Source: an uncultured Bacteroidota bacterium
GTDB lineage: Bacteria; Bacteroidota; Bacteroidia; Chitinophagales; Chitinophagaceae
Direction: 5' to 3'
DNA: 64,000 bases
Assembly (NCBI GenBank): GCA_903819975.1
Contig: CAIJFI010000007.1
Span: forward strand, 124,001-188,000
How positions within the stretch are numbered: the stretch's first letter is position 1; every line of letters starts with the position of its first letter. The translations under genes were made by a program, and so were the position numbers. The notes under the pieces are model-generated. The model saw only the letters and a list, made by a program, of their open reading frames with translations. It was not told the DNA's origin and ran no database searches. Positions 7,147 to 12,608 of the stretch are shown here, piece after piece.

Positions 7147-8889
7147 TTATAGATTTTGCTTCTGTAGCTGATCCAAGATATATTCTGAAGTACGCATTGA
7201 CAATGCTAAAATTGTCCATGTTATATTCTTATCTGCTTGCGATGTAAATACCGATCCATCCACACAGAATAAATTACTACAATCATGCGCTTGTCCCCAT
7301 TTGTTTAAGGCAGATGTTTTTTTATCATTTCCCATACGAACAGTTCCAGCTTCATGAATAATATTTCCCGGATTTGATAAACCATATTTATTGCTAGCAT
7401 CGTCTTGGTCACCCCATGTAATTACTGCACCCATTTCGTGCATGATTTCACGGAAGGTCTCTTTCATATGTTTTGCTTGGTTAATTTCATATTCCGAATT
7501 CTTACAATCAAATTTCAAAACAGGAATACCATATTTATCAACTACATCTGGATCAATCTTACAATTGTTCTCAAAACGTGGAACTGCTTCTCCACGTCCA
7601 CCCATTCCTACACTCGCACCATAAAAGAAACGAACATCTTCTTTTAATGATTCTCCGTATCCACCTGCTTCTTTGGTTTTACCATTCACTTCAAATTTCC
7701 CATTCAATCCTTGCATACCCATACCAAATCCATAATTTGGTTGACTCATGCCACCCCAATATTCAATATGGTATCCGCGAGGGAAATCTAATTTTTTATT
7801 ATCCAACCACCATGGCGTATATACGTGCATACCGCCCACTCCGTCTTCATTATAACGCTTACGTCCAAACAAACTTGGTATAACACCACCTAATGCGGCA
7901 CCTGTTGAGTCATGTAAATAATGACCTACTACACCACTGCTATTAGCCAATCCATTTGGATGTTTTTGTGATTTTGAATTCAATAATAAACGTGCAGTTT
8001 CGCAAGTACTCGCACCAAGTATTACTACTTTAGCGTTTACTTGATACTCTTGCTTATCATCTTTGTTTACATAAGAAATACCAACTGCTTTTCCTTCCTT
8101 ATCTGTTAATACTTCACGTGCCATTGCACCAGTAATTAAATCAACATTACCTGTCAATACAGCAGGGCGCACAAGTACAGATGAAGAAGAAAAGTCTCCG
8201 TATACTTTACAAGAACGATTACATTGTCCGCAATAAAAACATGCGCCACGTTCGTCATTTATTTTTTTAGTTAAAATAGATAAACGAGAAGGGATCACAG
8301 GAATATTAATCCCCGTTGCCGCTTTCTTAAACATCAATTCGTGTAAACGAGGTTTTGGAGGAGGTAAGAAAATTCCATCAGGATCATTTTCTAATCCTTC
8401 GTTCGTACCATATACACCAATTAATCTGTCAATCTTATCATAATAAGGTTTTACATCCTCATATCCAATTGGCCAGTCATCACCTAAACCATCTATACTT
8501 CGTCTTTTAAAATCTCTTGGTCCAAAACGAAGTGATATACGCCCCCAGTGATTAGTACGACCTCCAACCATTCTAGCTCTCCACCAATCAAAATGATCAG
8601 ACCCTTTTGTTTGTGTGTAAGGTTCACCATCTATTTCCCAACCCCAGTAGCAACCATCAAATTCGCCGAATGGACGATACTTTGAACTTGCTCCTCTGCG
8701 TGGAGAATCCCATGGATTTTTTAATTGCGCTGAATTTTTTGCTGGATCATAATCGGGACCCGCTTCCAATAAACAAACTTTAAGACCAGCTTTCGCTAAT
8801 ACATACGCAGCCATACCACCACCAGCACCTGATCCTACTATAATAGCATCATATTTTTTAGGCGCTACTTTAACTTGAAAATCTGACAT
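7147..8889 (-). CDS. GMC-family FAD-dependent oxidoreductase with Cys-rich motif
   Basis: YDAIIVGSGAGGGMAAYVLAKAGLKVCLLEAG Rossmann FAD motif; C-terminal GTVRMG...NLFCVDGSVF; CFYCGQCNRSC. Confidence 0.92.
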   Translation of the reverse strand: MSDFQVKVAPKKYDAIIVGSGAGGGMAAYVLAKAGLKVCLLEAGPDYDPAKNSAQLKNPWDSPRRGASSKYRPFGEFDGCYWGWEIDGEPYTQTKGSDHFDWWRARMVGGRTNHWGRISLRFGPRDFKRRSIDGLGDDWPIGYEDVKPYYDKIDRLIGVYGTNEGLENDPDGIFLPPPKPRLHELMFKKAATGINIPVIPSRLSILTKKINDERGACFYCGQCNRSCKVYGDFSSSSVLVRPAVLTGNVDLITGAMAREVLTDKEGKAVGISYVNKDDKQEYQVNAKVVILGASTCETARLLLNSKSQKHPNGLANSSGVVGHYLHDSTGAALGGVIPSLFGRKRYNEDGVGGMHVYTPWWLDNKKLDFPRGYHIEYWGGMSQPNYGFGMGMQGLNGKFEVNGKTKEAGGYGESLKEDVRFFYGASVGMGGRGEAVPRFENNCKIDPDVVDKYGIPVLKFDCKNSEYEINQAKHMKETFREIMHEMGAVITWGDQDDASNKYGLSNPGNIIHEAGTVRMGNDKKTSALNKWGQAHDCSNLFCVDGSVFTSQADKNITWTILALSMRTSEYILDQLQKQNL

Positions 8890-9013
8890 AATGCAATCGT
8901 TTTTCTAATGAGAATTGAACTATGAATTTAATGAAATTTTTCAATCAAATAGAAAAATAAATTTGAACTGTCCTAACAAAATGACATTCATTTTTAACAA
9001 AAAAAACAAATGA

Positions 9014-9182
9014 GACAAATGTATTTTGATTCTGAACTTTGAGCCATAGCGTTAAACAATCTCTAAATTCGAACGTTAAAAAAGTCTGCATGTTTGAGCA
9101 CGAAGTGCGAGTTCAGACTTTTAGTTCGGATTTAGAGATTTTAGCGTAAAATGGCGATAGAGAAGAATAAAATTCATTTGTC
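9014..9182. repeat. Large imperfect inverted repeat (palindromic intergenic element)
   Basis: gacaaatg...catttgtc ends; aatctctaaattcgaac / gttcggatttagagatt arms; aaaagtctg / cagactttt arms; central gcacgaagtgc hairpin. Confidence 0.65.
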
Positions 9183-9192
9183 TAATTAATTG

Positions 9193-9225
9193 GCAAAAAA
9201 ATACCCACTCGATAGAGCGGGTATT
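9193..9225 (-). terminator. Intrinsic terminator downstream of the class II RNR gene
   Basis: aatacccactcgatagagcgggtatt stem with T-run on the minus strand. Confidence 0.65.
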
Positions 9226-9251
9226 AAAGATTAAAGTTATAAGGTTAAGGC

Positions 9252-12200
9252 CTAGCTGCAACCCATGCTTGTTCCACAGTTCAAGCATTTGTAACAAGTA
9301 CCGCTACGAATAGTGATATGTCCACAAGTGCTACATGCTGGCGCATCGCTTTGCATGCTTTTTGCTGCTGCAGTTACATTATCCATTGAACCACCTTCGC
9401 TAACCGTTGCAACTACATTTGCTTTTGCTGCTGGAGCAGGAGCAGATGCTGCAGGCGCTGTTACGCGGATGCTACTTAATTCAGGCTTTCCCACTAATGT
9501 AATATCACTAGCGTCACCTAAATTTTCGACAGTTGGCTTGTCTAATACATGTACTAAATCGGTTCTGCCTAAATATTCATAAGCTAATGAACGGAAGATA
9601 AAGTCCACGATAGATGTGGTTGTTTTAATATTTGGATGATCCACCATACCTGATGGTTCAAACTTGGTAAATACGAATTTGTCAACGAACTCTTCTAATG
9701 GCACACCATATTGTAAACCAACAGAAATAGAGATTGCAAAACAGTTCATCAAGCTACGTAATGTAGAACCTTCTTTTGCTAGGTCAATAAATAATTCACC
9801 TAAGGTTCCGTCATTGTATTCGCCCGTTCTTAAGAATAATACTTGGCCGCCAATTCTTGCTTTTTGTGTAAAGCCACGACGCTTAGCTGGTAAGGATTTG
9901 CGCTCAACAATGCGAGATAACTGACGTTTTAAAACAGTGTCAGTTGAAGTATTCATACGCTTTTGAACTTCCTCTAATAATTCGTCAACAGTTAAGTTGC
10001 TTAGATCTACAAGTTGAGAAGCTTCATTTACTATTTCTCCCGCATCAGATGCATTCGCATCTTCTTCTGTTTTCTTTTTCTTATCAGACTTAGTACTTAA
10101 TGGTTGGCTTAATTTAGAACCATCACGGTATAAAGCGTTTGCTTTTAAACCTAATTCCCAACTCATTAAATAACAGTCAGCAATTTCTTCAACACTTGCT
10201 TCGTTTGGAAGGTTAATTGTTTTTGAAATCGCACCAGATAAGAATGGTTGACATGCAGCCATCATTCTAATGTGACCATGAGCGTGAATATATCTAACTC
10301 CTTTTTTACCGTTTTTGTTTGCACAATCAAATACTGGCAAATGCGCAGGATTCAATGCTGGAGCACCTTCTACTGTCATTGTACCACAAACATAGTCGTT
10401 TGCTTCGTCTATTTGATCTTCGCTAAATCCTAAAGCTTCTAACAAGTTAAAGCTCCAGTCTGCAAATACTTCTTCCTTAAATCCTAATCTTGTTAAACAA
10501 GCATCACCTAAAGTGAAGCGGTTAAAGATGAATCCAATTTCGAATGCAGATTTAGCTGCGTTATTTAATTTAGTAACTTCTTCCTGTGTAAATCCTTTTG
10601 CTAATAAAGAAGCATCGTTAATGTGTGGCGCACCTGCGAAGCTTGCATGACCTACAGCAAAATTTACTATAGCATCATTTTCCGCTTGCGTATAACCTAA
10701 GTTCTTTAATGCTTGAGGTACTGATTGGTTGATGATTTTAAAATATCCGCCACCAGATAATTTTTTAAATTTCACTAAAGCGAAATCTGGTTCAACACCT
10801 GTAGTATCACAATCCATTACTAAACCAATTGTTCCAGTTGGAGCAATTACTGTAGTTTGAGCATTTCTGTAACCATATTTTTCTCCTAATTGAACTGCAT
10901 CATCCCAAGCTTTAGTAGCCGCTTTTAATAAATAATCAGGAGTGTATTGTGCTTTAATTCCTTGTGGTTTAATTTCTAATCCTACATATGCATCAGCGTC
11001 GTATGCAGCTGCACGGTGGTTGCGCATTACACGTAACATATCTTCTTTATTTTCTTGGTACTTGTCAAAAGTGCCTAAGAAAGAAGCCATCTCTGCAGAA
11101 GTTTTGTATGCAATACCTGTCATGATTGCACTAATTGCACCAGCAATACCGCGTGCTTCTTCACTATCATAAGGAATACCGCTTACCATTAACATTGAAC
11201 CTAAGTTAGCAAAACCTAAACCTAATGTTCTGTAGTCATATGATAATTGAGCTACTTCTTTTGAAGGGAACTGTGCCATTAACACAGATACTTCTAATAC
11301 TGTAGTCCATAAACGAGATGTATATTCAAAACCTTCAACATCAAATGAGTTATCTGATTCGTCAAAGAATTTTCTTAAGTTAATTGAAGCCAAGTTACAT
11401 GCTGTGTTATCTAAGAACATGTATTCAGAACATGGGTTAGATGCATTAATGCGACCACCTTTAGGACATGTATGCCACTCGTTAATTGTAGTGTCATATT
11501 GAGTACCAGGATCGGCACAACGCCATGCAGCGTTTGCGATTTGCTCCCATACTTCTTTTGCTGGAATAGATTTCATTACACGACCATCGGTACGAGCTTT
11601 TAATTCCCAATTTCCATCTTCAGATAATGCTTTAAAGAAGCTATTTGGAATACGAACAGAGTTGTTTGAGTTTTGGCCTGAAACAGTTGCATACGCTTCT
11701 CCTTCATATCCATTATCATAACCAGCAGCAACTAATGCAGCTACCTTATCTTCTTCTTGTACTTTCCAGTTAATGAATTCTAAAACTTCTGGGTGATCTA
11801 AATCCAAACAAACCATTTTAGCAGCACGACGTGTCGTACCACCAGACTTAATTGCACCTGCAGCACGGTCGCCAATTTTCAAGAAGCTCATTAAACCACT
11901 TGAAGAACCACCACCAGATAATTTTTCGTTTGCTCCTCTAATTTGAGAGAAGTTAGTACCTACTCCAGAACCATATTTAAAAATTCTTGCTTCTCTTGTC
12001 CATAAATCCATAATACCCCCTTCGTTCACTAAATCATCGCTCACGCTTAAAATAAAACAAGCATGTGGTTGTGGACGCTCGTAAGCACTTGTTGATCTTT
12101 TTAATTCTTTATCAATTGGATCAACATAATAGTGACCTTGCGCTCCACCAGTAATACCATAGCTTTCGTGTAATCCTGTATTAAACCATTGTGGCGAGTT

Positions 12201-12608
12201 AGGCACACAAGCTTGATTTAAAATACTATATACTAATTCTTCATAAAATACTTGTGCGTCTTTTGTAGTAGCAAAATAACCATAACGCTCACCCCATACT
12301 CTCCAACAATTTGCCATACGATGTGCAACTTGCTTTACAGAAGTTTCTCTGCCTAGAGAACCATCCGCTTGAGGAACGCCAGCTTTTCTAAAATATTTTT
12401 GCGCTAAAATGTCCGTAGCAATTTGGCTCCATTGTTTTGGAACTTCTACGTTTGTCATTTCAAACACTTTTTCTCCGTTCGGATTTTTGATAACGCTATC
12501 ACGATAGTCGTATTCAAATAAATCAAATGGAGACACATTGTCTTTTGTAAATCGGCGAGAAAATTCTAGTCCTTTCTTCGCGGCTGTTTTTGTTTTTGGA
12601 TTAGCCAT
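9252..12608 (-). CDS. nrdJ: Adenosylcobalamin-dependent (class II) ribonucleoside-diphosphate reductase
   Basis: 1118 aa; [65 protein letters not shown]-terminal [27 protein letters not shown]. Confidence 0.95.

Follow-up and report, generated by a model that had tools for sequence, protein, structure and literature searches.

An intergenic element of about 170 bp in the window (the whole 64,000-nucleotide stretch of DNA that was analysed, from an uncultured member of the Chitinophagaceae) is probably a non-coding, non-autonomous snap-back mobile repeat, fully palindromic and MITE-like, in which hairpins of one family would sit in the apices of other hairpins in the manner of Russian dolls, with conserved internal-loop motifs between the levels. 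The MITE-like nature put forward as one candidate in an earlier note on this DNA is supported by dispersed copies (5 in the element's own genome, at most 7 in any genome of the genus and up to 52 model matches in Clostridium sp. chh4-2), by occupied and empty orthologous sites (the RNR/GMC gene pair, empty in 29 sister species, and the mixed states of the asd/ligA locus) and by terminal inverted repeats, the whole element being an inverted repeat and its fully palindromic Clostridium relatives having sharp common ends and 7-bp target duplications. Within the open-access literature and Rfam the hairpin-repeat family is previously undescribed: no description was found among open-access papers, and an earlier one in a subscription journal or preprint is possible.

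Architecture and covariation of the nested hairpin

The window element separates two minus-strand genes, lying after the stop of one for ribonucleotide reductase and before the start of one for a GMC oxidoreductase, past the reductase terminator hairpin as the earlier note had placed it (Table 1). The palindrome arms listed in that note were all recovered in place within 9014-9182, and its view that the whole element can fold as one long hairpin agrees with the predicted RNA fold, which forms one hairpin at -65.2 kcal/mol (z = -8.2; 200 dinucleotide shuffles gave a mean of -31.95 and an sd of 4.04, with 0 of 200 equally stable). The imperfections in the symmetry are regular, the mismatched spots being the conserved junctions. 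A 5' bulge of 4-6 nt at the place of J3 is found in several proteobacterial relatives also. The mobile unit may be slightly longer than the palindrome, running from about 9009 to 9187 (AATGAGACAAATG ... CATTTGTCTAATT), because the half-deleted asd/ligA copy of the same genome also has ...CTAATTAATT.

Table 1. Coordinates of the window element, its substructures and the adjoining genes
Feature	Position	Strand	Sequence	Remarks
Whole nested-hairpin element	9014..9182	+		Full-length copy; one-hairpin fold; top-scoring model match of its genome (169.8 bits); 29 sister species lack it at this locus
Outer termini	9014-9021 / 9175-9182		GACAAATG / CATTTGTC	
Second arm pair			ATTTTGATTCT / AGAAGAATAAAAT	
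Outer arm S1, 5' side	9014..9033	+	GACAAATGTATTTTGATTCT	Sequence varies by locus, palindromy kept
Outer arm S1, 3' side	9161..9182	+	AGAAGAATAAAATTCATTTGTC	
Junction J1, 5' side	9034..9044	+	GAACTTTGAGC	Conserved in alignment; equals 5' half of apex in short-form hairpins
Junction J1, 3' side	9154..9162	+	GCGATAGAG	From alignment and short forms
Stem S2, 5' side, and junction J2	9044..9059	+	CCATAGCG / GCGTTAAACAA	From alignment; family consensus GCGTTAAGAAA
Junction J2, 3' side, and stem S2, 3' side	9139..9155	+	TTTTAGCGT (J2)	From alignment
Stem S3, 5' side	9058..9074	+	AATCTCTAAATTCGAAC	Variable, with compensating changes
Stem S3, 3' side	9124..9140	+	GTTCGGATTTAGAGATT	
Junction J3, A-rich 5' bulge	9075..9083	+	GTTAAAAAA	Partner TTTTAG, 9119-9124
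Stem S4, 5' side	9080..9088	+	AAAAGTCTG	Partner CAGACTTTT, 9114-9122
Apical module	9089..9113	+	CATGTTTGAGC-ACGAAGT-GCGAGTT	Closing pair G9088-C9114; part common to several phyla
Tip	9098-9108		GCACGAAGTGC	
Intrinsic terminator of reductase gene	about 9195-9230	-		Context only; found in element-free sister species as well
Ribonucleotide reductase gene	9252..12608	-		Stop-side neighbour of the element
GMC oxidoreductase gene	7147..8889	-		Start-side neighbour of the element

In the aligned copies short constant strings alternate with stems of copy-specific sequence. The near-invariant parts are the three junctions (GAACTTTGAGC, GCGTTAAGAAA and GTTAAAAAA) and the tip CATGTYTGAGC..GCGAGTT. Between loci the junction columns are 90% identical and the stem columns 51%, and within loci the junctions are 86-97% and the stems 51-88% identical (94 aligned copies). 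The outer arms (20-60 bp) are locus-specific, yet self-complementary at nearly every locus. With the structure applied to 20 copies, 92.7% of the cells are paired and 28 pairs have changed on both sides, giving a covariation score of 0.338 against 0.097 ± 0.010 in shuffles and at most 0.089 in slid structures; the rows of this set are related, so that the shuffle count is no probability, while the slid controls preserve the relatedness. On the + strand, with a symmetrically chosen pair set, G-U pairs outnumber A-C oppositions by 206 to 84 (counts that are not independent, the rows behind them being related), which is moderate evidence that the + strand is the strand that folds, RNA and single-stranded DNA not being told apart. 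On inspection a kink-turn was dropped as an interpretation of the TGAGC/GCGA motif, some copies having Watson-Crick pairs in place of the tandem G-A at J1.

Copies, empty sites and nesting among Sediminibacterium-type genomes

By BLAST the rest of the genome (2.3 Mb) contains 4 more matches, all of them partial; of 24 congeners 9 have matches, and 16 genomes from other families gave no match. A covariance model finds about 80 copies over 24 of the 61 genomes of the genus (freshwater Sediminibacterium-type Chitinophagaceae, placed with Sediminibacterium by the named records among the tip-pattern matches), with E-values down to 1e-38. The earlier note had held that a single copy, with neither covariation nor conservation in relatives, would amount to incidental symmetry. 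Checks on these points returned 5 copies in the element's own genome, 29 empty sister sites, covariation well above that of the shuffles and conserved relatives, and the symmetry is not incidental.

The copies occupy ~16 distinct gene neighbourhoods (asd/ligA, purC, acs/POT, fumC, guaA and others, the names being assigned by inspecting translated neighbours), the commoner of which each occur in several species. Where both neighbours are visible, 80 of 88 copies are positioned between convergent genes; counted by distinct locus and tallied by hand, about 12 of 16 are convergent, compared with 20% of the gene pairs in the window (p = 4e-6). The window copy is an exception and is not between convergent genes. 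Among the copies the same locus is occupied in both orientations, and some loci hold two copies back to back. Such pairs (minus then plus, about 35-160 bp apart) are seen at single convergent loci in G041:C17, G041:C19, G055:C67, G005:C16, G004:C47, G007:C32, G066:C86 and G063:C2. Contigs from short-read assemblies (L223, L226, L213, L008 and L021) often stop at or near the element, as is expected for long hairpins. Two contigs filed under the MAG Comamonas sp. lk (L081 and L122) carry Sediminibacterium-type elements and genes, and that bin is therefore probably contaminated or mislabelled.

At the RNR/GMC gene pair 29 sister species have 120-410 bp of ordinary intergenic DNA from which the element is absent, and the window copy is therefore a lineage-specific gain by insertion. 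Its arm GACAAATG recurs as the outer arm of a copy at a different locus in genome G002, so that the arm, or some of it, must move along with the element. Relative to the sister species, the window copy has a left breakpoint that is not clean, and no target duplication is readable at this copy or at the other Sediminibacterium copies.

The asd/ligA locus, compared in 30 species, is found in empty, short, full, extended and half-deleted states. The element is missing in L360, L363, L364, L367, L374 and others, and is full in L351, L354, L361, L370, L378 and L379; L366 and L371 have a short hairpin, with a similar one in L362, that consists of the outer level alone closed by its own apex (GAACATTTGAGC-ACA-GCGATTGAGAG). 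Because the short hairpin is the outer level with its own tip, the apex of the outer hairpin is precisely where the inner one is placed, and the apices of both contain TTTGAGC..GCGA (TTTGAGC-N3-GCGA in the short form). Short forms occur at other loci too. The window's own genome (L357) has a half-deleted remnant at asd/ligA. In L368 the full element is accompanied by about 100 additional AT-rich bases; these lie inside stem S2, are themselves palindromic and possibly represent a further nested insertion.

Relatives in other phyla and the search for a mover

The tip pattern GCATGTYTGAGC-N(3-8)-GCGAGTTC occurs in at least 81 stretches when one genome per species is searched, against a chance expectation of about 5-6 by a simple equal-base estimate, and Lachnospiraceae, Clostridium, Thiothrix, Methylobacillus and Lonepinella are among the matches listed; in these five the tip belongs to repeats present in several copies, with stems that vary. 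Outside Sediminibacterium the tip mostly caps a stem whose sequence is unrelated, and a 5'-side bulge of 4-6 nt often comes next; a minority of the matches there are in coding sequence, have no stem and look like chance. Across phyla the tip and first stem (S4) are 96.4% paired, with a covariation score of 0.785 vs 0.220. Genomes with model matches have from 1 to 52 of them, with the maximum in Clostridium sp. chh4-2, and 10 of 297 genomes in a Bacteroidota sample have any. Among the copies of other phyla the convergent-gene bias is absent, and no neighbouring gene recurs among carriers beyond the orthologous Sediminibacterium loci.

The Clostridium sp. chh4-2 repeat is a fully palindromic MITE. 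Its near-identical copies of about 250 bp are palindromic over their whole length and have sharp inverted ends (GATTCGGGTGTCAAAAGGTC). Direct target duplications of 7 bp, among them CTCTATT, CTACCAT and ATCATAG, flank four of the copies; a script located the ones at L324, L326 and L330, and the one at L331 comes from the alignment. Two of these copies (L326 and L330) sit in terminator-like hairpins, and L349 has a 10 bp inverted flank in place of a direct repeat. In this genome the inverted GATTCGGGTGTCAAAAGGTC ends stand only 77, 149 or about 241 bp apart, and the 77- and 149-bp forms look like internal deletions of the repeat. The only features that would tie the Sediminibacterium and Clostridium elements to a shared ancestor are the apex and a similar J2 motif.

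Methylobacillus and other Proteobacteria carry a palindromic unit of about 600 bp that contains two tip-bearing hairpins in facing orientation (L299, from Methylobacillus, 1000-1650; L297, 800-1700; L301, 1000-1650), with conserved stretches like CTTTTCTTTGGTTACTTTCTT in between; no published description of this unit was found. In a gammaproteobacterial MAG a TwoAYGGAY RNA (RF01731, 54.9 bits; L099, 1453-1573) is about 100 bp from a tip-bearing hairpin.

The survey for a mover covered Y1 transposases and reverse transcriptases. Y1_Tnp was found neither in the window's genome, nor in five further carriers (G002, G004, G005, G007 and G012), nor in five non-Bacteroidota carriers, and the motif is absent beside the Y1 genes at 30 loci of carriers from other phyla, the flanks of which carry different inverted repeats (e.g. 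GGGGTCAGGTC). Adjoining the Y1 transposase genes of G030 are faintly tip-like hairpins GTCCGTAGTCTGTAGC...GAGC..GCGA (L046, 1720-1880; L039, about 1215 on the minus strand), a possible distant link to REPs. Reverse transcriptase (RVT_1) was found in 0 of 24 carriers, ruling out a retroelement or group II intron. No autonomous partner with matching ends was found in the Clostridium chh4-2 genome, and Sediminibacterium may have an active partner or may have lost it, as such repeats often do. Neither the Sediminibacterium nor the other-phylum forms match Rfam 15 at gathering score, and a known RNA family was ruled out. Cargo of a phage or plasmid was dropped as an explanation as well: the window element has no phage match, 2.9 million viral contigs gave one apparently chance hit, and two other-phylum forms have no plasmid match. 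The Methylobacillus form has one match, a Variovorax megaplasmid.

Working model, rival explanations and known systems

In the model that we propose the + strand would fold to a hairpin as DNA, and as RNA if transcribed, presenting the tip CATGTYTGAGC..GCGAGTT and bulges at fixed spacing; covariation establishes this structure, and either nucleic acid could be the acting one. A transposase supplied in trans would then move the element at a low rate, the movement itself being evident from presence and absence at orthologous sites. Landing or survival, which the distribution does not tell apart, is mostly at 3' gene ends, chiefly of convergent pairs and often in or beside terminator hairpins. 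Insertion into such a hairpin followed by loss of an asymmetric piece would leave the element flanked by complementary arms peculiar to that locus, and one more level would be added when a copy inserts into the apex of another already resident; the end states are seen in the genomes, with the order of events presumed. Resident copies flip orientation at their locus, probably by hairpin-mediated template switching. Several points count against the MITE-like reading. The Sediminibacterium copies gave no readable target duplication, the left breakpoint of the window copy is not clean, and the searches above gave no autonomous partner, Y1 transposase or reverse transcriptase. Outer arms of 25-60 bp exceed most terminator stems in length, and plain neutral MITE decay would not give copies that stay in place from species to species with their junctions intact. 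This endurance suggests something other than simple decay of the resident copies.

This conservation bears on the chief rival, which we consider rather unlikely: a functional structured RNA or 3'-end element, in which the long hairpin would end, cap or insulate transcripts of either convergent gene and be kept by selection, its spread being secondary. Junctions held at high identity within loci while the stems drift with compensation are in keeping with such a role, as are the convergent-gene context, the presence of both orientations between convergent genes and the excess of G-U over A-C on the + strand, a count tempered by the relatedness of the alignment rows. The patchy distribution (24 of 61 genomes, with 29 sister species empty at the window locus) argues the other way, and the window copy stands past an existing terminator and away from convergent genes. 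The element moreover has no U-run design of its own and no Rfam match, and its other-phylum copies are without convergent bias. An RNA role, in line with the structured-ncRNA candidate of the earlier note, and a MITE-like origin can both be true together, and the element may have kept a function as an RNA or a terminator.

The remaining explanations are far less probable. A folded single-strand recombination site, attC-like or a phage attachment site used by a tyrosine recombinase, would account for a kept structure with variable stems and fixed extrahelical bases, and for copies that invert at the same locus; we think it very improbable, since inspection of the copies and their gene context gave no properly ordered pair of attC-type core sites and no cassette arrays, and the phage, viral-contig and plasmid searches point the same way. 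Slightly more improbable still, and largely refuted, is the REP/BIME candidate of the earlier note, taken here as repeats moved by RAYT (Y1 HUH) transposases, or TIRYT elements: the copies are palindromic, intergenic, multi-copy and at times in inverted pairs, and atypical structures have been reported to flank Bacteroidetes subclass 2.6 Y1 genes (PMC6006769), but the carriers tested have no Y1_Tnp, the Y1 loci lack the motif and have other inverted repeats instead, neither end has a GTAG or CGTC tag, and tandem clusters are absent. That the symmetry is incidental or that of an ordinary terminator has next to no likelihood; a real terminator does adjoin the element, but the element is multi-copy and covarying, with model E-values down to 1e-38.

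Going further than the MITE-like reading we suggest, tentatively and as a proposal more apt to fail than to hold, that the tip CATGTYTGAGC-N3-GCGAGTT may be a hairpin signal of ancient origin common to several phyla, and that a single widely conserved but unrecognised factor reads it, which would let hairpins enter the apices of other hairpins, own copies and terminators included. If true, mobile DNA that nests in itself and targets hairpins (or a kind of structured RNA) would form a class apart from MITEs, REPs and introns, and a common recognition factor would make the family more than another palindromic MITE-like intergenic repeat; the cross-phylum tip offers a handle for fishing that factor out. 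As a rule bacteria do not maintain long palindromes stably, yet these persist at the ends of housekeeping genes, with the exact internal-loop motifs kept and stem changes compensated, and the asd/ligA states in living relatives make the growth and loss of nested palindromes directly traceable, so that the family is a good case for how palindromic DNA moves and nests. Its copies also account for some contig breaks in metagenome assemblies.

REP, BIME and REPIN sequences with their RAYTs resemble the element as palindromic extragenic repeats, some in inverted pairs, and REPs measure 20-40 bp, bear a GTAG or CGTC tag and often number in the hundreds (PMC3733652, PMC2817692, PMC3116915, PMC6006769). 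The present element differs in being about 170 bp long and tagless, with at most 7 copies per Sediminibacterium genome and no Y1 in the carriers tested. Integron attC sites likewise keep a folded single-strand structure with little sequence conservation, whereas the present element has a chromosomal gene-end context, without a cassette array or correctly ordered core sites. Group IIC introns and some other elements choose terminator hairpins, and the element has a similar preference for gene-end hairpins, but it has no intron structure and no carrier has a reverse transcriptase. Closest are the snap-back or palindromic MITEs and the MITE-like intergenic repeats of bacteria, of which ERIC and Correia/NEMIS are examples: these too are short, non-coding, palindromic, dispersed and intergenic and have no transposase of their own, and the Clostridium relative is alike in its terminal inverted repeats and 7-bp target duplications. 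The present element departs from them in stems that covary without sequence conservation, in several nested levels with conserved internal loops, in locus-specific palindromic outer arms and in a tip, but not ends, common across phyla.
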